Shown: piece after piece, positions 18,314 through 29,426 of the stretch
How positions within the stretch are numbered: position 1 is the first letter of the stretch
Layout: the number at the start of each line of letters is the position of its first letter
Origin: a virus
Strand: one strand, 5' to 3'
DNA: 30,865 bases
IMG/VR virus record: IMGVR_UViG_3300037504_000098
Span: 1 to 30,865 of that record
Notes under the pieces: generated by a model
What the model was told of the DNA's origin: nothing
What the model saw: the letters and a program-made list of their open reading frames with translations, nothing else
Databases searched by the model: none
Program-made: the position numbers and the translations under genes

Positions 18314-19258
18314 CTACAGGTAGACGCTCTCGCATTGGCACCCATAAATTTCAGAGCCGTCCGCCCCAAAGCTCCTATCCATCGGATACATGAGCAACCC
18401 ACCAGGCAGCTGGTACGGCTCTCCGATCGGCTTCCGCTGTCCGTCCGCCGCTGCGTGACTTGGCCGCGTGTTGTGGAAGATCGCCGCCCACTCTTTCTCC
18501 TGCGAGTCAAGATCTGCCGCCCGCTGCCTCATCGTTGCCACTATTCTACCCTGAGTGAGCGGAGTTGTCAGCCGGTCGCGCGCATCGTCTATGTAGCGCA
18601 GCAACTCGCCCTCGCTTACCGATGTCGGCAACCGTGCCAGCTTCACCACCTCACGACTCAACCGCTTTGCGCCGTTGATATCACCGCTCTCAATCAGCGC
18701 CGCGATCCGTTCAACGCTGTTCTGCAGTGGATCAACCACGCTCAACACAGCCGTGTCCCGGGTGACGTTTACCGTCCAGTTGCTCTCTGTAACCGCTATG
18801 ATGATTCGATGCCGACGAAGCCGCCGTGCAAGATCCGTTCTGGCGGCGGTATTGAAGTCCTGCCCGTCAGCGCGCGCCGCCTCTCCCGCGGCAGATGCAA
18901 ACCCAAAGTACTTGAGCACTGTGTTGGTAATGCTCGAGACACTGTCCGCAAGCTGCCCGACAAACGCCACAGCAAGCATCCCAGCAATCGCTCTCATCGC
19001 CTCGTCTATCGGATCCTCGTCGTCTACCTGCTTGTATGCTCGCCAGTCTCTCGGCAACAACCTGTTTGCAACCAGCGAGTATCCACGGTTGAGAATGATG
19101 CTCAGCTCAGTATCTGCGTCCTGCGGCATTTGCACCGACCCAGGCGCCCACTCGGCAACGATGCGTTTCTCCCATGTGCGTAGCTCGCGCTCGTAGTAGT
19201 TCCTCCCGGTCTTGCTCGCGGCTCTCGCCTGGCGCAGCTGCTCTCGCCTACTCGCCAT
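18314..19258 (-). CDS. Head morphogenesis protein (SPP1 gp7 / Mu gpF family)
   Basis: Start ATG 19258 is chosen over Met 19300 because it overlaps the portal stop by only 11 nt and lies behind a GGAG further upstream. The 314-residue protein has a helical N-terminal region with a hydrophobic stretch (AMRAIAGMLAVAFVGQLADS). The C-terminal family signature is NTRPSHAAADGQRKPIGEPY, then FGADGSEIYGCQCESVY, where His and Cys are typical conserved residues of this domain. The family assists capsid assembly and is packaged into heads in small numbers. Its place between portal and protease is canonical. Confidence 0.88.
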   Translation of the reverse strand: MASRREQLRQARAASKTGRNYYERELRTWEKRIVAEWAPGSVQMPQDADTELSIILNRGYSLVANRLLPRDWRAYKQVDDEDPIDEAMRAIAGMLAVAFVGQLADSVSSITNTVLKYFGFASAAGEAARADGQDFNTAARTDLARRLRRHRIIIAVTESNWTVNVTRDTAVLSVVDPLQNSVERIAALIESGDINGAKRLSREVVKLARLPTSVSEGELLRYIDDARDRLTTPLTQGRIVATMRQRAADLDSQEKEWAAIFHNTRPSHAAADGQRKPIGEPYQLPGGLLMYPMDRSFGADGSEIYGCQCESVYL

Positions 19259-20627
19259 CGTCAAGCCCGTCGGTTGCTCCGGCACCGTCGTCCGGCACAT
19301 CGTCTATCCGTGGCTCCGGAGGCTCCATTAGATCCGAGTCGCCAATCGGCAGTAGCGTCGATGGTGCGAGGATATCGTCGCCGCCGTCAACCTCGTCAAA
19401 CCCGCCAATGGCGCGGATCTCGTTGGTCGTCATAGATTGCGTATCGCGAGCTCGTTTCATCCGCTCAAGGTTTCGCCCCTTCAGCGTCTTGATTGTCGAC
19501 TCGTTGTAGGTGATATCAGCCTCGAGCAGCTCCGGGTACCTCGGCTCAAGCCCTAATGTCAGCGCGTCGGCGATATCGTCGAACACCGGAAACACGCCCT
19601 GATCGAAAAACGCCGTCTGTGCAGTCGCGTAGTTGTTGAACGTTGAGGCGTCGTTGCTCACCATAGGGAGGGGGATGCCGTAGAACGTGTACACCGCCTC
19701 CTTGGCCTCTTTGAGCAACTCCACATAGTCCATCTCTCTGTTGCTGATTGCCAAGTCAAGCGCCTGGACGGGACGCGGCATGACAAGCGTCCCGCCTGCT
19801 GTCGCCGATCCTCTCAGCGCTTGGAACGCTGCGCGAATCTGATTGACCGCGGCATCCTCGAAGCGCTCGCCCTCAAGCGGCATCACTCCGCCGGTAAGGC
19901 GCAGTCCGTTCTTCAGCACCGAAGTGTTATGCCGCTTGCCCTCCACGTTTTGCTGCACGCTGTACAGCAGTGATCCAAGCGGTGACTGCCCACGATACGG
20001 ACGGTCGATAGCCTCGGCGCCAAGTATCGGCACCAACTCATTCAGCCCGTCCTCGCTCAGCCACCGAATGCGTCCGTTGGACTCAGTGCGTCGGTACGTC
20101 CGCCGATCACGATCTCCCACCGTCCGGAACGTCAACGGCAATCCATCACTACGCGAGTTGTCGTTGATCACGTCAAACGGGTACACCCACGTGCGAGCAA
20201 CCGGTTCTGACTCCGGGCGGCCGCGCAGCACCACCCAAGCTTCGTTCGTCAGCAGAAAGCTGTAGGCGATCTCGTAGAAGAAACGTCTCTTGCTGTACCC
20301 CTCGCTGCCGGTTGAAAGAAAGGTCACCGCCGGAGAATCAGTCTCAAAGTCGGAGCCGTCGATCGTCAACCCGAGCGTAAAGCCTGCAATCTGCGTCGCG
20401 ATACGGTGCACGGCGGTACCGAGCACGTCGGACTTCATCGCCAGCCGGTAGGCGAGGATAGGGTGCACATCCTGAAAAATCCCAGCGCCCCACACCACGT
20501 CGTACAGATCAGAGCTTTCGGTAATTGTTTTGCCGGACGGCTCAATAGTCGTCTCGCCTTTCGTCACAAGCCCGAGCCCGCGCGCAAAGGGCTGCATCCA
20601 TGTCCCTATTCTTTCAAGCGGAGTCAT
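19248..20627 (-). CDS. Portal protein
   Basis: ATG 20627 follows AGGGGG. The 459-residue protein carries portal family features: LAYRLAMKSDVLGTAVHRIA near the N-terminus, YSFLLTNEAWVVLRG, YRGQSPLGSLLYSVQQNVEG, and ISNREMDYVELLKEAKEAVY, followed by FYGIPLPMVSNDASTFNNYA. The acidic C-terminus ends GATDGLDDGE. This order matches the HK97-type portal, whose dodecamer forms the DNA entry vertex and docks the terminase. The neighbouring gene order, terminase upstream and morphogenesis protein overlapping downstream, supports it. Confidence 0.95.
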   Translation of the reverse strand: MTPLERIGTWMQPFARGLGLVTKGETTIEPSGKTITESSDLYDVVWGAGIFQDVHPILAYRLAMKSDVLGTAVHRIATQIAGFTLGLTIDGSDFETDSPAVTFLSTGSEGYSKRRFFYEIAYSFLLTNEAWVVLRGRPESEPVARTWVYPFDVINDNSRSDGLPLTFRTVGDRDRRTYRRTESNGRIRWLSEDGLNELVPILGAEAIDRPYRGQSPLGSLLYSVQQNVEGKRHNTSVLKNGLRLTGGVMPLEGERFEDAAVNQIRAAFQALRGSATAGGTLVMPRPVQALDLAISNREMDYVELLKEAKEAVYTFYGIPLPMVSNDASTFNNYATAQTAFFDQGVFPVFDDIADALTLGLEPRYPELLEADITYNESTIKTLKGRNLERMKRARDTQSMTTNEIRAIGGFDEVDGGDDILAPSTLLPIGDSDLMEPPEPRIDDVPDDGAGATDGLDDGE

Positions 20628-20635
20628 CGCACCCC

Positions 20636-21844
20636 CTACGCTATTACCCAGCCAAAGTCATGAACTACCTCGCCGGTCCACATCTCTTCGAAGTGGTACC
20701 GCAACGCATCAATCGCGTGGTTGTTGAGGTCCACCGGCTCATCGATTGTATCACCGTTTCGATCCTCTTTGTAGTGGTAGGACATGACCTCCTCTGCGGT
20801 GTGCGGACACCTGGTCTTGTGGATGTGGATTCTCCGCTGTCGCAGCCAATCGACGCCGTACTTGATCGAGCTTTTCCCTTTTTTCGCCGGACTTACGTTG
20901 AAGCCGTCGCGCCTGAACTCCTCTATCCTGTCCGGCTCCGCACTGTCCGCAATGTAGGACCACCGCTTGTCCTGGTCTATCCCTCGCAGCACGTCAACAA
21001 GATCGGCGTTCGTCAACTTGCGCTCGTACACTTCGTCGAATACGTAAACCTCGCCGTCTCTCATGCCTGCCCAGACAATAGCCGACGGATGATTGTAGCC
21101 GAAGTCAATCCCGCCCCCAAACGACTCAAGATCGTCCGGCCCATAGTCGAAGTCCTCTATCACAAAATCGGTAAACACTACGTTCCCAAGCACACCCCAT
21201 TCGCCGAGCGTGTACACCTGGTAAAAGTACGGCGATCGCTCCTTCAGCTCTTCAAGATGTTGCCGGTACTCCGCATCCAGAAACGCGTTGTCCTTGTAGG
21301 TGGTTTTGGTGATCCGTGCGTTCAATCGCGGCTCATCGAAGAACTCGCGTTTGAGCCAGTGCGTGTTCAGAATCGGGTTGAACGTCATGACTACGCGCTT
21401 CTCGTGGCCCATCCCGCGCAACCGCAAGTCTAGCTGCCGGAGGTCGTCACGCTGTAGCTCGGTAGCCTCTTCAATCCAGATGTCCGTCATCCCATGCACC
21501 GACTTCAGCTTCTCCACATCGTCAAGCCCCGTCATCATGATTTCAACCCCAATCGGCGAGACAAGAGTCATCTCCGATCGGTTTACGCGAAACCACTGGG
21601 CAAGCCCCATCTCTGAGATGATGTCTCGCAACAGCGCAAACACTGAGTTGCGAAGTGTCCTCGCAACCTTTCTGACGCACAGGAACTTGCGCCCAAGGTT
21701 CTGTGGTGTCATCGATGCCAATACGATGTGCTGCGCGACGGCGTAGCTCTTGCCAGATCCAGCCCCGCCGGTGACGACCTCGTACCGGTAACCGTATTCC
21801 TGGAGGTGAGTGTATGCGCTATTGACCTGTAGCGTCGCCTGCAT
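20636..21844 (-). CDS. terL: Terminase large subunit
   Basis: I place the start at ATG 21844; an earlier in-frame ATG (21904) has no visible ribosome site and lies deeper in the small-subunit gene. The product is about 402 residues. The ATPase contains Walker A VVTGGAGSGKSYAVAQHI and Walker B DIWIEEATEL. The C-terminal nuclease shows GGGIDFGYNHPSAIVW, YIADSAEPDRIEEF and LNNHAIDALRYHF, whose Asp residues fit the RNase H-like active site. The pattern is that of the PBSX-type terminases. It pumps and cuts phage DNA. Its frame overlaps the small subunit gene by 26 nt. Confidence 0.95.
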   Translation of the reverse strand: MQATLQVNSAYTHLQEYGYRYEVVTGGAGSGKSYAVAQHIVLASMTPQNLGRKFLCVRKVARTLRNSVFALLRDIISEMGLAQWFRVNRSEMTLVSPIGVEIMMTGLDDVEKLKSVHGMTDIWIEEATELQRDDLRQLDLRLRGMGHEKRVVMTFNPILNTHWLKREFFDEPRLNARITKTTYKDNAFLDAEYRQHLEELKERSPYFYQVYTLGEWGVLGNVVFTDFVIEDFDYGPDDLESFGGGIDFGYNHPSAIVWAGMRDGEVYVFDEVYERKLTNADLVDVLRGIDQDKRWSYIADSAEPDRIEEFRRDGFNVSPAKKGKSSIKYGVDWLRQRRIHIHKTRCPHTAEEVMSYHYKEDRNGDTIDEPVDLNNHAIDALRYHFEEMWTGEVVHDFGWVIA

Positions 21845-22184
21845 CTTCCGGCTTCGGCACCGCCTGGTACACAATCTTGATCGATTCTCCGTCAAGTCCT
21901 GCAATTTCGGTGCGCTCTGTAAAACCGCGCTTCTTTCCTCGCGTGTAGAGCATCATGCGGACAGCCCACGGTTCACGGTCCTTGACTGCGGCTAATAGCT
22001 GGCTTTCGGCGAGGTCCAAAACCCTCTCGCCCTCGTCCTTCATAGCCTGCTTTGTTGCCTCCCACTTGTTAACGTAGTTGGCCGCGGTGCTCCAGCAACA
22101 ACGCAGCTTTGCCGCAACGTGAGACATTATCCCACCGGACCCCTTTATTGCTTCAAGAACTGTTTCACGTGTATACGATTTCAT
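21819..22184 (-). CDS. terS: Terminase small subunit
   Basis: ATG 22184 starts a 121-residue protein with an N-terminal helix-turn-helix (TVLEAIKGSGGIMSHVAAKL, then WSTAANYVNKWEATKQAM). A helical oligomerisation region follows (ERVLDLAESQLLAAVKDREP), with GKKRGFTERTEI and a C-terminal tail that would contact the large subunit. This layout is typical of TerS, which recognises the packaging site. The gene begins 24 nt after the ParB-like gene. The pac/cos site was not located. Confidence 0.88.
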   Translation of the reverse strand: MKSYTRETVLEAIKGSGGIMSHVAAKLRCCWSTAANYVNKWEATKQAMKDEGERVLDLAESQLLAAVKDREPWAVRMMLYTRGKKRGFTERTEIAGLDGESIKIVYQAVPKPEDAGDATGQ

Positions 22185-22208: not shown

Positions 22209-22916
22209 TCAGACCAAAATGTCAATTGCTCCGCTTGCAATGTCAATCAGCACCGTGTGCTTTATGTGCTTCTCAGTCTCCGGCTTGTGCACCTTGCGCA
22301 TGAACTCCCGCTTTTCTCGGTTGTTTGGGAACACCACCGTTACTGTATAGTCAGCAGACTCAGCATGATAGGACCCGTCCTCGTTTGTTTGATCCCTGGC
22401 GTTGTCTCTTTGCTTCTTTTTAATCTCTCGAGCATGCTCTACTGAGACAGTTTCTTGCGGGTCGTCATCAAAGACCGGCGACAGAAAATCATCACCAAGC
22501 AAAACTGATACGTCAGACTCGTCAAAACCAAGGTCGGCTACATAGTCAATTTCAGGAACGATATCCTTGAGGCTGGATAGAGCGAACACATCCCATTCGC
22601 CCTGCGCAGATGGGTTGTTCATGAAGACGTTTCCTGCTACCTCGGTTTTCTCGTCTACGTCTACCATTGCCACGGTCAGCTCGTAGTCCTGCTTACGTAT
22701 CACTGTGTCCATGGCCGCCAGCCGCTGATGTCCGGAGACGAGCGTCATAGATCTCCGGTTTACGACCAAAGGAGACCAAAGACCGTTGGTGCGCAAAAAC
22801 TTGCGCAGCTTCTTTGCCGCCCCCTCGCTTATCTTCCTTGGGTTGTAGTCTGCCTCTCGTATGTCCGCGCGGTTTACTACCTCAACCTCGAATGCTTCTA
22901 GTCTATTTGCCGCCAT
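22209..22916 (-). CDS. ParB/sulfiredoxin-type nuclease-like protein (IbrB-like)
   Basis: ATG 22916 overlaps the upstream gene by 14 nt. The 235-residue protein has a ParB/Srx N-terminal domain: NPRKISEGAAKKLRKFLRTN, then SPLVVNRRSMTLVSGHQRLA with the SGHQR motif near residues 61-65. The middle has DVFALSSLKDIVPEIDYVAD and the C-terminus is acidic, then basic. Proteins of this fold bind or cut DNA or hydrolyse nucleotides. ParB-like proteins next to PAPS-reductase-like proteins occur in the IbrA/IbrB pair and in phages. Whether this one acts on DNA or in packaging is unknown. Confidence 0.8.
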   Translation of the reverse strand: MAANRLEAFEVEVVNRADIREADYNPRKISEGAAKKLRKFLRTNGLWSPLVVNRRSMTLVSGHQRLAAMDTVIRKQDYELTVAMVDVDEKTEVAGNVFMNNPSAQGEWDVFALSSLKDIVPEIDYVADLGFDESDVSVLLGDDFLSPVFDDDPQETVSVEHAREIKKKQRDNARDQTNEDGSYHAESADYTVTVVFPNNREKREFMRKVHKPETEKHIKHTVLIDIASGAIDILV

Positions 22917-23529
22917 ACCATTGTGCCCGTTTTGTCATCGCTTCCACCATCGGTGACGCAGTCTTGAGTGCGCTGTAATCGGCCGGAAAATTGTTCTTTA
23001 CCCACAGCAGTAACTCTCCGTCAGCTTCTGATATCTCATGCTTCAACCCTCTGCTGTATTCAACGGGCAGAGGTAGCTTGTTTGCCTTGCAATACGCCAT
23101 GGCCTCCTTGGCGCTGATGTCGCACACTGGATAGAACTTCAAGTTCCTCGCGTCAACCCCGTCGACTGTTTTTGCCAGCATTCCACGGCGCGCGAAAGAC
23201 TCATCACGCCTTACGCCTTGCGCTATGTAGGAGATATCGTGCTCTTGCCGGAGCTCCGCCTCGATATCAGCCATCCTGATTTTCTTTCCACACTCTATCG
23301 ATCTTGTGGCTGGCCCCGGAAGTCGGTTGATCGTGATTCTGTATCGCCTTTCGTACCACCGTAATAGCGCGTCTTTCGATGGGGTTGTTGCAAAGTAGTA
23401 CAGATAGACAAAGACCATGTCTGATTCATGGTGCTTGCAGAGAAGATCCAGCATGACTACAGAGTCTTTGCCGGTAGAGAAGAAAACAATGAGCGGCTCC
23501 TGTGACAGAGCCGCTGCATAGTGAGTCAC
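22903..23529 (-). CDS. PAPS reductase-like PP-loop protein (IbrA/DndC-related)
   Basis: The start is GTG 23529 with GGAGG 10 nt upstream. The 208-residue protein carries the PP-loop FFSTGKDSVVMLDLL near residue 17-31, followed by DMVFVYLYYFATTPSKDALL, an internal IAQGVRRDESFARRG, and YPVCDISAKEAMAYCKANKL. These match the PAPS reductase / adenine nucleotide alpha hydrolase fold, including the late motif YPVxDxS before a helix. Members reduce PAPS, form thio-modifications, or act in DNA phosphorothioation (DndC). Only Cys79 and Cys163 are notable; no CxxC cluster for an iron-sulfur cofactor is seen. It is coupled with the ParB-like gene, suggesting a joint function. Confidence 0.82.
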   Translation of the reverse strand: MTHYAAALSQEPLIVFFSTGKDSVVMLDLLCKHHESDMVFVYLYYFATTPSKDALLRWYERRYRITINRLPGPATRSIECGKKIRMADIEAELRQEHDISYIAQGVRRDESFARRGMLAKTVDGVDARNLKFYPVCDISAKEAMAYCKANKLPLPVEYSRGLKHEISEADGELLLWVKNNFPADYSALKTASPMVEAMTKRAQWYGGK

Positions 23530-24214: not shown

Positions 24215-24736
24215 CTACCGCCATCCATCATAGTCAACGTGCGCCTTGTATGGTCCACTCCACGGCTTGTAGGTGACAATCTCCGGCTGCAGGCGAGCGT
24301 ACCACGGCGGCAGAAACGGTACCAAGTCACCGCGGTTGCGGACAGACAGTGTCCGAACTACGCCAGACAGCGCCTGGACAAACCGCCGGTTGCCGGTCCG
24401 CTTTGAACCGACGCAGCGCAGCAGCACTCTGTGCCCTTTGCGCGCAAGCTCCCGTGCGACGATCTGAGCAATTGCGCCGCCACGAGAATGACCGTTGATG
24501 TACCACTTTTGAGTATTTGGGTACGTCCTCAGCAACACCCTGAGCACGCGTATTGCCTCGTGGCGATCCATCCGGTTGACTCGCTCGTTGTCACCGATCG
24601 AGCGCATGGTGCGAAAGTTGTAGATCCAGTCTACCAAATCGTTGCTTCCGTCCACCCAGACGTCTACCTGATCGATCACGTGTGCAGAACGAGTGTATTC
24701 ATGCCTAAACTGTGTATTTCGAATCCTATGTGTCAC
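24215..24736 (-). CDS. Class 3 lipase-like alpha/beta hydrolase
   Basis: Start GTG 24736 is chosen because AAGGGG lies just upstream and overlaps the previous gene; a longer open frame exists to 24781. The 173-residue product has the strand VDVWVDGSNDLVDWIYNFR, the nucleophile elbow INGHSRGGAIAQI with Ser84, and candidate catalytic Asp137 (RNRGDLVPF) and His166 (YKAHVDYDGW). These match the lipase-3 fold, which hydrolyses lipid or acyl esters. It has no signal peptide, so it would act in the cytosol or during lysis. It could affect membrane lipids late in infection, or remove acyl groups made by the neighbouring glycan cassette; both are inference. Confidence 0.78.
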   Translation of the reverse strand: MTHRIRNTQFRHEYTRSAHVIDQVDVWVDGSNDLVDWIYNFRTMRSIGDNERVNRMDRHEAIRVLRVLLRTYPNTQKWYINGHSRGGAIAQIVARELARKGHRVLLRCVGSKRTGNRRFVQALSGVVRTLSVRNRGDLVPFLPPWYARLQPEIVTYKPWSGPYKAHVDYDGWR

Positions 24737-24956
24737 GCCGCCGCCCCTTGAGCTTGTCGACAAGCTCGTTGCACCGCGCAACCATCACGTCATACCGCGC
24801 TCTGAGCTCGGCGTTCTCCGCTTGCAGCCGCTCGCACTCCCGGAGCACGGCGTCGATATTCTCCGACGTACGCTTGATCGCCTTGCTTGTTTCTGACTTC
24901 GCCGCGATCGTTCCAGCGTCCTGACTCTCGGCAAGCGTTGGAAACCGTGTGCTCAT
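24726..24956 (-). CDS. Small coiled-coil protein
   Basis: ATG 24956 overlaps the previous stop in ATGA. The 76-residue protein is dominated by a heptad-rich helix from about residue 27 to 70 (AIKRTSENIDAVLRECERLQ and AENAELRARYDVMVARCNEL). The tail KGRRRDT is basic. Its function is unknown; it may act as an oligomerising adaptor. It lies in the accessory region between the DUF7694-like and the lipase-like genes. Confidence 0.65.
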   Translation of the reverse strand: MSTRFPTLAESQDAGTIAAKSETSKAIKRTSENIDAVLRECERLQAENAELRARYDVMVARCNELVDKLKGRRRDT

Positions 24957-25345
24957 ATCGTCTTTCCCCCTCGTGCGAAATCAGGCATCAGATCGTCGTC
25001 CTCATTCCACGGCGCCCAGATGTGAAGACAGTAAGGGTGTATGTTGATCGACCTATCGTCAGGAGGCAGCACCTGGTACGCCCACCGGTTCGATCCAAGA
25101 ATGACGTTTCTCACGCCTTTGATGTCGTCCCACGTGGGGAGCTTCCCCGGATAGCTCAGGCTGATGTGCACCCACACCGCGTTGTCATCCTCGATAGCAG
25201 CGCTTGCAACGATGGTCAGCTTTCCGCGTGTCCACTCAACCCCGTCGTCTGCTTCTCTGGTCCGCTCCCATGTCGCCGGCACATCAAGGTTTAGCAAATG
25301 CTCAAAAGCTTCTTCAAGCTCGATTTTAACTATCTCTCCGCTCAT
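24953..25345 (-). CDS. DUF7694-like protein of unknown function
   Basis: ATG 25345 follows CAGGAGGT; upstream in-frame ATG codons belong to the preceding gene's overlap. The 130-residue protein contains WVHISLSYPGKLPTWDDIKG, VRNVILGSNRWAYQVLPPDD and INIHPYCLHIWAPW. This pattern (HxS near PTWDDI, later QVLPP, HP and CLHxW) recalls the DUF7694 family often found in phages. Biochemical function is unknown. The start overlaps the dehydrogenase stop in ATGA, so it is translated with the cassette but may not belong to the glycan pathway. Confidence 0.6.
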   Translation of the reverse strand: MSGEIVKIELEEAFEHLLNLDVPATWERTREADDGVEWTRGKLTIVASAAIEDDNAVWVHISLSYPGKLPTWDDIKGVRNVILGSNRWAYQVLPPDDRSINIHPYCLHIWAPWNEDDDLMPDFARGGKTI

Positions 25346-26154
25346 GCGTGGTACCTCCTGTTGTGGTTGATGGTCTGCACAGATTGGATGAGTGGTAACA
25401 GCAGCCCTCGTAACGCTGCCGCGGCAAGCATCGCCGGAACGTCTTTGTCGAGGCAATGACTTGCGTAGTAAGGATGCTCCCGGTAACTGTAGGTGTGGTG
25501 CCTGCTGATTCGCTCATCGAGTAGCCATAGCTCCCGCCACTCGTCGCGGTCGAGCCCGTAGTGCTCGCATGCCTGCGCCATTTCGTTCACGAACGTGACC
25601 TTGGTTGCGATCCACGCATTCTCGCTGTACTTGACCAACTCGGCCATGGTGGCGCTCGTCTTGTAGATCCGGTAGGTGGCCGGGGTGTACTCTTTGTACA
25701 GCTCGGCCACGATGTCGCAATCTTCCTGAGCTCCGCCGAGGATCACAAAGTGGTGATCAAGAGCATTCGCGTGAGCGGTTGCCCCGAAGTACTCCGGACT
25801 CATAACTACCCGGTACCCTTCCTCACGAAGTCTCTGCGTCGTGCCAGGCGGCACCGTCGACTTGATCACCAGCACATCGCACTGCACGCTCCACTCCTCA
25901 ACGACGCTTTCCACGATAGACGTGTCAGCACTACCGGACGGTAGCTTGTCGGTGGGCACGCACACAAACCCAACGTCGTACCACTTACCTGGCTTTATCT
26001 CGTAACATTTTGTCTGCTCATCAGACAACCTCATCACCTCTACTTTTCGCTTACCGGCTAACATGTTTTTCGCCGGATCGTGCACATCCGCCTCCGGAAA
26101 CAGCTCAAGCATGTTTTCCCCAACGACTCCGTAACCGATGATCACAACTTTCAT
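25342..26154 (-). CDS. Short UDP-sugar dehydrogenase-like protein
   Basis: ATG 26154 overlaps the previous stop in ATGA, behind GGGGGG. The 270-residue protein has an NAD-binding GYGVVG near residue 7, the family motif VIKSTVPPGTTQRL, MSPEYFGATAH, and the central helix KYSENAWIATKVTFVNEMAQ. The catalytic Cys sits in HCLDKDVPAML. These match the UDP-glucose/GDP-mannose dehydrogenases, which oxidise a sugar at C6 to a uronic acid. The usual family length is about 400-450 residues; the C-terminal sugar-nucleotide-binding domain is absent here. It may be truncated but active with a partner, or have another substrate. Confidence 0.85.
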   Translation of the reverse strand: MKVVIIGYGVVGENMLELFPEADVHDPAKNMLAGKRKVEVMRLSDEQTKCYEIKPGKWYDVGFVCVPTDKLPSGSADTSIVESVVEEWSVQCDVLVIKSTVPPGTTQRLREEGYRVVMSPEYFGATAHANALDHHFVILGGAQEDCDIVAELYKEYTPATYRIYKTSATMAELVKYSENAWIATKVTFVNEMAQACEHYGLDRDEWRELWLLDERISRHHTYSYREHPYYASHCLDKDVPAMLAAAALRGLLLPLIQSVQTINHNRRYHA

Positions 26155-26798
26155 TCCCACCCCCCTTTGTATGTGAAGGCGGCCGCGACATTGCGCGCCC
26201 CTTCTATCTCTCGAGGACCATCAAACATGTCGATCCGATCCGCAAACCACTCCGGCGTTTCGGCGAACTCTGCCGCGCGCTTGCGGTGGTAGTAGTCCAT
26301 CATGACGACCGTTGCGCCACGGGCGAGAATCGGACCGAACCGATCAAACAGCGCATCGAGTGCAACCGTCCCCACGGTGCAGTCGTCTACCAGCAGCCCA
26401 ATCGGCCTGTCCGGCAACTCTTCGGTAAGGTACACATCGCCCTTGTGCGGGATGATCTCCGCGCCGATGTCCACGACGTTCTCCGCCCACAGCTTGAAAA
26501 ACGACTTGCCAACTTCTGGGATCACCGTCTTGCTCTGCCGGTACGCGTTCTTGCGCATCGCATAGAACACTTTCCATCGATCGTAGGAGTGAATCGGCAC
26601 GCAGCTCTCCGCCTCAATGACGCCCATTGCCAGGTATGCGGTCGTCGATCCCAGCCACGGACCGACGTCAACGATGCAGTGGTTGAGCGGCACCTGTGAG
26701 GCAAGCCGAAACAGCTCAGGCCCAATCGTTGAACCGCCACCGCCGAGCTCCGGTATCTGAGTGGCGCGTCTCCACACTGCACGTGTCATAGCTCTCAC
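26151..26798 (-). CDS. Class I methyltransferase-like protein (second of two)
   Basis: GTG 26798 with GGGGGGA upstream is favoured; ATG 26789 is also possible. The 215-residue protein shows NHCIVDVGPWLGSTTAYLAM, a SAM-binding motif I, then IHSYDRWKV, a motif II-like acidic loop, and later GLLVDDCTVGTVALDALFDR and TVVMMDYYH. This fits Methyltransf_24-type small-molecule methyltransferases. A sugar or nucleotide hydroxyl is a plausible acceptor by context. It overlaps both neighbours by 4 nt. Confidence 0.78.
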   Translation of the reverse strand: MRAMTRAVWRRATQIPELGGGGSTIGPELFRLASQVPLNHCIVDVGPWLGSTTAYLAMGVIEAESCVPIHSYDRWKVFYAMRKNAYRQSKTVIPEVGKSFFKLWAENVVDIGAEIIPHKGDVYLTEELPDRPIGLLVDDCTVGTVALDALFDRFGPILARGATVVMMDYYHRKRAAEFAETPEWFADRIDMFDGPREIEGARNVAAAFTYKGGWE

Positions 26799-27376
26799 AG
26801 CTCATCCCCCCGAACGCGGTGAAAGTAAGTGCAGTCACCGTCTGTTTCCTTGTCGTCCCCAAACACCTCGTCAACCGCCAGGCGCACCCCAGGAAATCGC
26901 GGCTCGTTGCCATAGTCGTGTCCACCGATCCACCCGCCGACACGCACCTTTGGCAACCACAATGCTATGTCCGTACGAACTGCGTCGTAAGTGTGGATTG
27001 CGTCGATGAACACGCAGTCGAGCGAGCGGTCCTCAAACTTCGACGCCGCATCTTCGCTGTACATCCGCATCATCACGGCCTGCTCTGCCCACGGCTTGAT
27101 TGCCTGTAACGTCTTTGCGTAGCACTCCTCAAAGTAGGGCTGCTGGTTCTTTGCGATTGAGTCCGGAGACTGCGCGTATTCGCTCTTCGCATCCGGCGCT
27201 TGCCAAGGATCGATCATGTACCACGTCAGTAGCGGGCGCGCTTTGAGCACTTCCATCGCCGTCCGGCCCATCCAAACACCAACCTCGGCGCCGTGCCACT
27301 CGACACCGTCAGGAATGCGCCGGAGGATTGCTTGCCACCGTCGCGGCCGGTTCGGGTCAAGTCGTTTCTTGGGCAT
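26795..27376 (-). CDS. Class I SAM-dependent methyltransferase
   Basis: The start is ATG 27376 with AGGAGA 8 nt upstream; a longer in-frame stretch upstream lies in the sulfotransferase gene. The 193-residue protein has WHGAEVGVWMGRTAMEVLKA (SAM-binding), WYMIDPWQAP, SLDCVFIDAIHTYDAVRTDI, and GGWIGGHDYG. This is the order of Methyltransf_24/TylF-like enzymes, several of which methylate sugar hydroxyls in glycans or antibiotics. The gene overlaps the sulfotransferase by 20 nt. The acceptor is unknown. Confidence 0.85.
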   Translation of the reverse strand: MPKKRLDPNRPRRWQAILRRIPDGVEWHGAEVGVWMGRTAMEVLKARPLLTWYMIDPWQAPDAKSEYAQSPDSIAKNQQPYFEECYAKTLQAIKPWAEQAVMMRMYSEDAASKFEDRSLDCVFIDAIHTYDAVRTDIALWLPKVRVGGWIGGHDYGNEPRFPGVRLAVDEVFGDDKETDGDCTYFHRVRGDEL

Positions 27377-27983
27377 AGCCGAATCTCCTATAGGCTGTCT
27401 GCTCTGCCGTCTCAAACACAGCTCGGCACTGCGGCGATACGTCCGGAGGTAGCGGAAAGTCGTTCCGTGGTTTCTTGGCAGCCTCAACGTATTGGATAGC
27501 TTCTTGCGCGACAGCTCTGGGCACGCCTATGGTCCCGAGAAGCTGCGGAAGCTGGCGATCCATGTCGTCGGTGTCGTAGACTACGCTGCACGGCCAGTCG
27601 GCGAACTTACAGAAAATGCTCGTTACCCATCCTGGATGCTCACTGCACAGCCAAAACAGGAATTGCTCAAAATCAACCTTCGCTTTGTCTGGCGGGTTGT
27701 TGATCTCGCGAAACGGGTGCCACCATCGATGCTCATACTTCGGGTACAGCGGCCATCCCCAATCGTGCTGAATCGACCAGACGCTCTTGATCCACTTGTA
27801 CGGATCTCGGACAAACACGTGGTGGTAGACCGTCATCGGCATGTCTACAACACCGGGGCAATCGTGCTTCTCGCCGATCCCTTTCCCAAGCACCTTGCAC
27901 CGTCGCAGCACCGCAGTAACAAACGTGCCGCCGGTCCTCGGATTGTGTAGGAATACGTCTCCGTTACTCAACCAATGTGCCAC
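27357..27983 (-). CDS. PAPS-dependent sulfotransferase-like protein
   Basis: GTG 27983 follows AAGGGGG with a 6-nt spacer. The 208-residue protein has the 5'-phosphosulfate-binding loop VFLHNPRTGGTFVTAVLRR near residue 10-28, and VYHHVFVRDPYKWIKSVWSI, whose RDPYxWxxS matches the 3'-phosphate-binding element. The middle is rich in Trp/Pro and may contact a sugar. These are hallmarks of sulfotransferases, which transfer sulfate from PAPS. In this cassette the acceptor is probably a glycan. Overlaps of 20 nt with both flanking genes suggest coupled expression. It lacks a membrane anchor. Confidence 0.83.
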   Translation of the reverse strand: MAHWLSNGDVFLHNPRTGGTFVTAVLRRCKVLGKGIGEKHDCPGVVDMPMTVYHHVFVRDPYKWIKSVWSIQHDWGWPLYPKYEHRWWHPFREINNPPDKAKVDFEQFLFWLCSEHPGWVTSIFCKFADWPCSVVYDTDDMDRQLPQLLGTIGVPRAVAQEAIQYVEAAKKPRNDFPLPPDVSPQCRAVFETAEQTAYRRFGYAQETT

Positions 27984-28707
27984 TGAGTACCCCCTTAAAT
28001 GCGTCGAGCTTGATGTGCTGGATCGGGCCCATCCGGTAGGACCGACGTTTGTTCTTACCTTTCTCGCCGCCTCGGTCAGATGCGCTTCCGTGTCCGATCA
28101 GATCTTCCGGGTTCAACCGGTCGCCCTGCAAGTGTCGCATGTGCAGACACCGAAGATCAGAGACTTCCCAATCGGCGACATCGTGCGACTTGGCGGCCGC
28201 GGGTTTAACAACGCGCGTTTTGCAGTGAAACAGCGTGCGCTCGCCATCTTCCGGCCACTCGACAATGTTAGCGAAGTTGTACAGCTTGGTCGGGTTCCAA
28301 GATGGTGGTCCAAAGTGCCCAATTGCAAACCGCGTGTTCATATCCGTCACGTGGAAATACATCCCTTTGCATTGCCAGCAGGAGTCAAGCGCCCCGGTCT
28401 CAATCACCCCACGCACTCGGCGAAGTCCCTCCGGGTCGTAGATCTCGTCTCCGTCCACGCCGAAAACCCACGTGTCAGTGCCCACGTACGGCACCACATG
28501 ACGGTGTGTCTTGCGCAGATCCGGCTCATGCTGGATGGTGTAGCTGACCCGGCCGTTTAGCGCCGACACCGCTCGGTCCTCCGTTCGGTCGGTGCTTCCG
28601 GTGTCGATCACAATCACATGGTCGGCAAACTCCCGGACAGCTTTGAGCGCTGCACCAATGAATAGTTCCTCGTTTTTGACCATGCTCACCACTACTATTT
28701 GCATCAT
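27964..28707 (-). CDS. Family 2-type glycosyltransferase
   Basis: ATG 28707 follows AAAGGGGG and overlaps the previous stop in ATGA; a second ATG follows directly. The product is 247 residues with the GT-A signature: VVVSMVKNEELFIGAALKAV, HVIVIDTGSTDRTEDR and the metal-binding VFGVDGDEIY (Asp85, Asp87). These match the GT2 subgroup that includes LPS-core and peptide glycosyltransferases. The C-terminal region contains a His/Arg-rich segment (RCLHMRHLQGDR). It has no membrane segment, so it would use cytosolic NDP-sugars. Confidence 0.87.
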   Translation of the reverse strand: MMQIVVVSMVKNEELFIGAALKAVREFADHVIVIDTGSTDRTEDRAVSALNGRVSYTIQHEPDLRKTHRHVVPYVGTDTWVFGVDGDEIYDPEGLRRVRGVIETGALDSCWQCKGMYFHVTDMNTRFAIGHFGPPSWNPTKLYNFANIVEWPEDGERTLFHCKTRVVKPAAAKSHDVADWEVSDLRCLHMRHLQGDRLNPEDLIGHGSASDRGGEKGKNKRRSYRMGPIQHIKLDAFKGVLSGTLVE

Positions 28708-29426
28708 TCCCCCTTTGCAGCGTCTACCACGTCCGCTATGTCCTGCCACGCGCGGCACGCCGCACGCATCGCACTTGGCCATCCTGCTATCTGCCGGAGC
28801 ACCGCCCTCCGAAGTTGTGACTTGACGTGCAGCACGCGCGTGTGCGGGCCGAAACGCATCCAGTCGTCATTGCACGCATTCCACACGGCGCACGGTAGCT
28901 CGACGATCTGCGTCGCTCCGTCGTCGTGCTCGACCATCCATCCAAGCGACGCTTGGTTCTGGCCTTTGTACTTGCGCTTGTACGGTTGGTGAAAATCATC
29001 GTCGAGATACATCTGCTCGTCTATCTCGCCCCACTTGCGAATGAACGCCCGCGACCGATTGTTGACGCGGACGAAAACCACGCCGCCGTTGTACGGCCAC
29101 TGCGTAGACGTCCGTCGCGTAAGCGCGATGTCGAAATCCTGATCGTAAGCAGGCGAAAGCGACTGCAACACCACGGTGTCTGCGTCCATCATCACCACCC
29201 TATCTCCGTCCTGGCACGCCTCAACAAACGAAGACCAGAACTTGAACTTGTAATGATTGCTGCTCATCCCGCTGTTTTTCTTGACCTCGAGCGGTGGCGG
29301 AACCTGGTGCATGACAAGCTGCGCTTCCGGCCAGTTGAGCTCAACGCTTTTTGCAAACACCTCGCCAAGCCGGTGGTAGGCTGTCCGTTCATCGTAGTCG
29401 AAAACGACACTTACGACGTAGTCCAT
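28704..29426 (-). CDS. Family 8-like glycosyltransferase
   Basis: ATG 29426 follows GGGGG. The 240-residue protein contains HYKFKFWSSFVEAC, the metal-binding DxD in VVMMDADTVV (Asp81, Asp83), and WPYNGGVVFVRVNN, all typical of GT8-type enzymes that transfer hexoses from UDP-sugars. It is shorter than many GT8 proteins and lacks a membrane anchor. It overlaps RusA by 16 nt and begins the accessory cassette. Substrate and acceptor are unknown. Confidence 0.83.
   Translation of the reverse strand: MDYVVSVVFDYDERTAYHRLGEVFAKSVELNWPEAQLVMHQVPPPLEVKKNSGMSSNHYKFKFWSSFVEACQDGDRVVMMDADTVVLQSLSPAYDQDFDIALTRRTSTQWPYNGGVVFVRVNNRSRAFIRKWGEIDEQMYLDDDFHQPYKRKYKGQNQASLGWMVEHDDGATQIVELPCAVWNACNDDWMRFGPHTRVLHVKSQLRRAVLRQIAGWPSAMRAACRAWQDIADVVDAAKGE

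Follow-up and report, generated by a model that had tools for sequence, protein, structure and literature searches.

The window analysed here, the whole of the 30,865-base virus record IMGVR_UViG_3300037504_000098 (a partial contig of an uncultivated phage), carries a cassette of six genes at positions 25342-29426 on the minus strand. They encode, in the order of transcription, a GT8-like glycosyltransferase, a GT2 glycosyltransferase, a putative sulfotransferase (ST) dependent on 3'-phosphoadenosine 5'-phosphosulfate (PAPS), two class I methyltransferases (MT-1 and MT-2) and a short nucleotide-sugar dehydrogenase similar to UDP-glucose 6-dehydrogenase (UGDH). Judged by sequence comparison, the cassette is a recurrent, mix-and-match viral module, and we see an even chance that it serves the soluble, virus-encoded assembly of a glycan on a virion protein. 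The run of six genes had been proposed in an initial annotation of this DNA, and all six open reading frames (ORFs) are present at these positions and on this strand.

Recurrence of the cassette families in viral contigs

A Methyltransf_24 profile identified the viral contigs L090, L091 and L093, and a GT8-like profile then identified 37 viral loci, which form 33 clusters when loci sharing 1.5 kb with an identity of 85% or higher are merged. In 24 of the 33 clusters the GT8-like gene has a Methyltransf_24-type neighbour on its own strand and no more than 5 kb away, and in 10 it has a short dehydrogenase so placed; methyltransferases or dehydrogenases on the opposite strand within 5 kb were found in none. 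The count for the methyltransferase is partly circular, because a handful of the clusters had seeded the GT8-like profile and had themselves been found via the methyltransferase; with these seed clusters removed, the linkage is about 20 of 29. As a background, 80 viral loci recruited by the terminase large subunit (TerL; 812 kb) contain no GT8-like gene and no dehydrogenase, four methyltransferases and two GT2 genes.

MT-2, ST and GT2 were never used as recruitment queries, so their co-occurrence is the stronger test. Homologues of MT-2 (E<1e-5) occur in 10 viral clusters and all 10 have a GT8-like gene. The sole homologue of the window-type ST is found in L190, alongside GT8-like, dehydrogenase, MT-1 and MT-2 genes; L190 thus has five of the six families, and no contig has all six. 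The order of the window is kept in L185 and L194 (GT8-GT8-GT2-MT-UGDH, just upstream of the portal gene), with GT2 at the matching place and ST and MT-2 absent. The most constant member of the module is the GT8-like protein, with homologues in about 36 viral clusters, and homologues of MT-1 were found in more than 100 loci. The initial annotation had raised the case of related phages in which these genes never travel together: the opposite was found, as the families co-occur in viral clusters above the TerL background. The window's neighbouring genes for rusA, DUF7694, lipase, ASCH and the PAPS-reductase-like protein have no homologue in these loci, and the ParB-like gene has one in a single locus only. 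Recovery depended on the type of query: single-protein scans of viral contigs with ST, dehydrogenase and MT-1 returned nothing and profiles of MT-1, GT8-like and dehydrogenase succeeded; an exact degenerate pattern of the ST P-loop matched no viral contig.

Each gene of the cassette has its best relative in a contig of the set (GT8-like in L090, GT2 and MT-1 in L185, ST in L190, MT-2 in L177, dehydrogenase in L207), and the six genes look like a selection from a shared pool of parts. The backbone of the window phage is different: for the majority of its remaining genes these contigs offer no homologue, and its portal falls outside the portal family of the lineage to which many of them belong. 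A gene for a portal, minor head, major capsid or connector protein lies within 5 kb and on the same strand in 19 of 37 GT8-like clusters. The GT8-like profile was also run against the genomes of 84,980 species of bacteria and archaea and identified one locus, in a scan that hinges on a single peptide pattern, so that divergent copies may have escaped it. The single hit (L232, NVVJ01000101.1, a SAR86 metagenome-assembled genome) is on a contig with a tape-measure gene and other phage-like genes, several successive GT8-like genes and an MT-2-like gene.

The content of the cassettes varies, and sulfate chemistry recurs in it. In L090 (with L171) and in L172, three GT8-like genes are accompanied by two methyltransferases, a Sulfotransfer_3-like protein and an adenosine 5'-phosphosulfate (APS) kinase. 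APS kinase makes PAPS, the donor needed by sulfotransferases. It is above the cut-off in 4 of 50 records, and all four (two of which are the same phage, leaving three independent cases) also have a Sulfotransfer_3-like match; such matches occur in 9 of 50 records, all below the cut-off. In L188 (7145-8014) the APS kinase is fused to an N-terminal cytidylyltransferase-like domain inside a viral glycan cassette, possibly as a phage-encoded PAPS-forming enzyme. Sulfotransfer_2 proteins are found in 5 of 50 methyltransferase-bearing viral records, by coordinate comparison about 3.3 kb or less from the methyltransferase. Profile comparisons of the candidate sulfotransferases of the L090 type gave no match, neither with the window-type ST nor with the Sulfotransfer_2 proteins, so that the L090-type assignment is based on the sub-cut-off Sulfotransfer_3 matches and the linkage to APS kinase only. 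Further genes of these cassettes are a LicD protein in L196 and TupA-like ATP-grasp proteins beside glycan genes in L093 (3811-4644; this contig also has a short dehydrogenase) and L198 (9420-10247); the TupA-like proteins could amidate a uronic acid.

Enzymes and operon structure

The GT8-like protein (28704-29426, minus strand, with the most plausible start chosen) matches PF03407 (Nucleotid_trans) with 25.3 bits at a cut-off of 22; PF01501, GT8 proper, reaches 16.1 bits, below its cut-off of 24.3. The two aspartates of its DxD motif (D81-x-D83) are invariant across 25 sequences. An AlphaFold2 model built from 25 viral homologues has a mean predicted local distance difference test score (pLDDT) of 94.1 and a predicted TM-score (pTM) of 0.92, and the Foldseek ranking by E-value is headed by LgtC and further GT8 enzymes. 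The highest TM-score among the matches listed is that of the PBCV-1 capsid glycosyltransferase 2p72 (0.63/0.72, root mean square deviation 3.9), and in a viral structure library the matches are glycosyltransferases of phages and giant viruses. By its predicted structure, the protein is a GT-A fold glycosyltransferase. The GT2 protein (27964-28707, minus strand) starts with an ATG inside the ATGA overlap with the upstream gene; it matches PF00535 with 37 bits (cut-off 23.3), and PF13704 is likewise above its cut-off. Among solved structures, those closest to it in sequence are GmaR (E 1.9e-8) and SunS (E 0.002), both peptide or protein glycosyltransferases.

The third gene (27357-27983, minus strand) probably encodes a sulfotransferase, an assignment that follows from its PAPS motifs and a profile match rather than from a curated model or a confident fold. 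A 5'-phosphosulfate-binding loop is present near the N-terminus (HNPRTGGTFV, and HVPRTGGTFV in L190), a 3'-phosphate-binding motif (RDP...S) follows a beta strand (VFVRDPYKWIKSVWS in the window), and the protein has a C-terminal FGY. Its homologue in L190 (11644-12261) is 34% identical and conserves both the PRTGGT and the VRDP...S motif, with the 3'-phosphate-binding region VFVRDPYKWIKSVW kept. The profile of these two sequences aligns to viral Sulfotransfer_2 proteins across the 3'-phosphate-binding region (hhalign probability 91.6, score 48.7); 100 column shuffles reach no more than 19.7, and unrelated profiles score 13-16. No Pfam family matches even at E 10 and none in NCBIfam does. An AlphaFold2 model from the two sequences only has a pLDDT of 45.7, and Foldseek with this low-confidence model returns sulfotransferases among the matches, none of them significant.

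MT-1 (26795-27376, minus strand) is a class I S-adenosylmethionine-dependent methyltransferase of the Methyltransf_24 family (PF13578, 61.6 bits, cut-off 26.3). MT-2 (26151-26798, minus strand) reaches 16.4 bits with the same model, below the cut-off, and belongs to a divergent Methyltransf_24 subfamily.

The dehydrogenase (25342-26154, minus strand) has the NAD-binding and the central UDPG_MGDP_dh domains (PF03721 and PF00984, both above the cut-off). The GxGxxG motif is kept, and T102, E123, K177, N181, C236, K239 and D240 are conserved with few exceptions; the catalytic residues of UDP-glucose 6-dehydrogenases are among them. The C-terminal UDP-binding domain PF03720 was found nowhere in the window contig, in 12 related viral contigs or in phage Metamorphoo, and it was detected in the controls, SP-15 and an Aphanizomenon phage; phages SP-15 and Yong-DA have full-length dehydrogenases with PF03720. 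The short form (about 246-293 amino acids) is common to all 13 dehydrogenases of the module type, those of the window and of the 12 related contigs. The identity of a standard UGDH was rejected because PF03720 is absent, and the protein was classed as a short UGDH-like enzyme; the missing domain may point to an unusual substrate. In the viral contigs L213 and L214 (7014-8735) the short dehydrogenase is inside an open frame of 573 amino acids, suggesting a fusion to another domain.

Among the family calls of the initial annotation, both glycosyltransferases, the methyltransferases (MT-2 below the cut-off) and the dehydrogenase are supported by Pfam or by the structure model, and the sulfotransferase at the level of motifs and profile only. 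The mean Kyte-Doolittle hydropathy does not exceed 1.66 in any 19-residue window of the six proteins; there is thus no evident membrane anchor or segment in any of them, in agreement with what had been claimed. Successive genes overlap by 4, 20, 20, 4 and 4 nucleotides, and a purine-rich stretch precedes the start codon of most of them. The coupled run exceeds the six genes: rusA overlaps the first cassette gene by 16 nucleotides, and DUF7694 and then the next ORF extend the run beyond the last one with overlaps of 4 nucleotides. The coupling is therefore a property of the operon and not of the six genes. The G+C content of the six genes (0.56-0.60) is close to that of the window (0.578) and hence gives no sign of recent import.

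Proposed product, acceptor and alternatives

In the scheme that we infer, which extends to the order of the reactions, the identities of the sugars, the sulfation itself and the virion acceptor, the enzymes would act in the cytoplasm of the infected cell and yield a decorated oligosaccharide. GT2 and the GT8-like protein would attach a short sugar chain to a protein and lengthen it, the short dehydrogenase would convert a hexose to a uronic acid, MT-1 and MT-2 would cap sugars with O-methyl groups and the ST-like protein would transfer sulfate from PAPS, which would come from the host in this phage and, in some relatives, from an APS kinase of the phage. The acceptor would most likely be a virion surface protein, giving the particle a charged, methylated coat. 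A virion acceptor is favoured because of the head-operon position in relatives, the absence of membrane genes and the protein-glycosylating relatives of GT2, and also because of the likeness to the chlorovirus capsid transferase and the precedent of glycosylated mycobacteriophage capsids.

Several observations weigh against this assignment. The 19 clusters with nearby head genes share homologous head genes and thus belong to one broad lineage, so that descent explains part of the linkage and of the position; within this lineage the cassettes differ in site (in the terminase-portal interval, upstream of the portal gene or behind the capsid gene) and have a reshuffled content. The cassette of the window itself is upstream of the terminase genes, after rusA and outside the head block. 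The likeness of the GT8-like protein to a capsid glycosyltransferase goes no further than the GT-A superfamily, the fold support for the sulfotransferase is weak, and with the UDP-binding domain missing the dehydrogenase need not yield a free UDP-uronate. The initial annotation had read the six genes as one pathway: that the enzymes work together is supported by their co-occurrence, and neither the free UDP-uronate (PF03720 is absent across the phage subfamily) nor the acceptor is established.

The soluble enzymes could instead decorate a glycan of the host envelope or its precursor (lipopolysaccharide, capsule or teichoic acid), with superinfection block or masking of the cell as the outcome. 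Uronate, O-methyl and sulfate groups are typical of surface polysaccharides, TupA and LicD, as found in the relatives, elsewhere have polymers of the wall or surface as their targets, and an Aphanizomenon phage groups UDP-glucose dehydrogenases with polysaccharide genes. However, the six genes come without a polyprenyl-phosphate transferase, flippase or membrane protein, unlike O-antigen conversion of the GtrAB type, and many relatives have the cassette in the late head block, which is late for exclusion; on balance we regard an envelope target as unlikely, though it deserves to be taken seriously. A serotype-conversion module of the GtrABC type was rejected because membrane genes are absent.

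A more far-reaching version of virion glycosylation is a phage-specific, mobile glycan factory, put together from the shared enzyme pool, that places sulfated, uronate-bearing, O-methylated oligosaccharides on the head; the dehydrogenases would oxidise sugars that are already attached, which would explain the loss of their UDP domain. In this full form we consider it rather improbable.

Hypermodification of phage DNA bases with a decorated sugar, evading restriction in the manner of Bacillus phage SP-15, appears very unlikely. SP-15 is reported to have glucuronate-containing thymine derivatives, the literature links its sugar genes to DNA modification, and its UGDH gene adjoins sugar genes; this enzyme is, however, full length, unlike that of the cassette, and no base-hydroxymethylating or base-activating enzyme is present among the annotated genes of the window, itself a partial contig, or in the cassettes seen. 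A search with a thymidylate-synthase model for a DNA-modification partner was uninformative, as the positive control SP-15 was missed as well. PMC10829341 cites earlier reports of nucleotide modification based on glycosyltransferases and sulfotransferases in phages.

Little credence is given to a loose set of morons that act on separate targets and owe their linkage solely to the descent of one lineage and shared insertion points: 19 of 37 clusters do share head-gene families and the composition does vary between contigs, but the different backbone of the window carries the same enzyme subfamilies, and which contig holds the best relative changes from gene to gene, a pattern to be expected if a mobile pool had been put together for one pathway.

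Known systems and gene neighbourhood

The combined module has no description that we could find in the open-access literature. Its novelty, suggested in the initial annotation, holds for this combination and this literature; groups of phage glycosyltransferases and methyltransferases, and virion glycosylation as such, were already known. The capsid glycan of PBCV-1 is built by mostly soluble viral glycosyltransferases and methyltransferases and includes sugar methylation (PMC9614988). A064R and its partners resemble the cassette in being mostly soluble, virus-encoded enzymes of these classes, and their GT-A domain 2p72 resembles the GT8-like model. They differ in belonging to a eukaryotic giant virus, in their separate or multidomain genes and in a sequence identity of about 10% to the GT8-like protein of the window; moreover, PMC9614988 describes A064R-D1 as GT34-like by fold, and the A064R/A061L steps, as it presents them, involve no sulfotransferase or dehydrogenase.

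Capsid glycosylation is also on record for F1 mycobacteriophages (Che8-type; PMC11256854, citing Freeman et al. 2023). According to this paper, these phages share with our proposal phage-encoded glycosyltransferases and a glycan on the capsid protein of a tailed phage; it mentions no sulfotransferase or short dehydrogenase. Our phage collection contained no relative of ST, MT-2 or the GT8-like protein, and no mycobacteriophage homologue of these three or of GT2 was seen in it. Actinoplanes phage phiAsp2 has coupled glycosyltransferase, methyltransferase and glycosyltransferase genes (pas33-pas35) just downstream of structural genes, but its methyltransferase is only 22.5% identical over 63% and there is no dehydrogenase or sulfotransferase among the three. 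In Microbacterium phages such as Metamorphoo a glycosyltransferase adjoins a dehydrogenase of this short type, with an identity of about 35% and without PF03720, whereas no sulfotransferase or methyltransferase is annotated beside the pair and the neighbours are ParB-like and AAA-ATPase genes, not head genes. SP-15 is alike in that glycosyltransferase and sugar-activation genes adjoin its dehydrogenase gene, and unlike in the UDP-binding domain of that enzyme and in the other accompanying genes. The literature on phage sulfotransferases yielded only mentions with unknown function or correlation, among them the sulfotransferases of unknown function in PMC10580990.

Phage particles are usually regarded as bare protein. 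If cassettes for a charged, methylated and sulfated glycan exist in dozens of environmental phages, frequently within the head operon, virion glycosylation would be far commoner among tailed phages and of a richer chemistry than one would gather from the few cases in actinobacteriophages, and effects on virion stability, adsorption, binding to mucus or matrix and recognition would be expected. Biochemically, the conserved short dehydrogenase is puzzling, and the enzyme subfamilies can be used as markers for finding cassette-bearing phages.

With the exception of a few ORFs, the genes of the window are on the minus strand. In the order of transcription, rusA and the six genes are followed by DUF7694, a small coiled-coil-like ORF, a lipase-3-like gene, ASCH, a PAPS-reductase-like and a ParB-like gene, a small ORF at the position of the terminase small subunit, the terminase large subunit, portal, head morphogenesis, protease, major capsid protein, connectors, tail, tape measure, an M23 peptidase and an ERF-like gene that is cut by the contig end. 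The placement between rusA and the terminase genes given in the initial annotation is therefore exact for rusA, which adjoins the cassette, and loose for the terminase genes, since six other genes (DUF7694 to the ParB-like gene) intervene. The lipase in this interval (24215-24781, minus strand) is a class 3-like alpha/beta hydrolase.

The PAPS-reductase-like protein, a PP-loop protein with the motif FSTGKDS, overlaps the ParB-like protein (22209-23529, minus strand). The two resemble the IbrA/IbrB-type pair of phages, and the former is probably unrelated to the sulfate supply of the cassette. The portal and capsid proteins of the window have no close relative among the sequences fetched. The terminase large subunit (19248-21904, compared with L084) has 49.5% identity with its counterpart in Thermoanaerobacterium phage THSA-485A.

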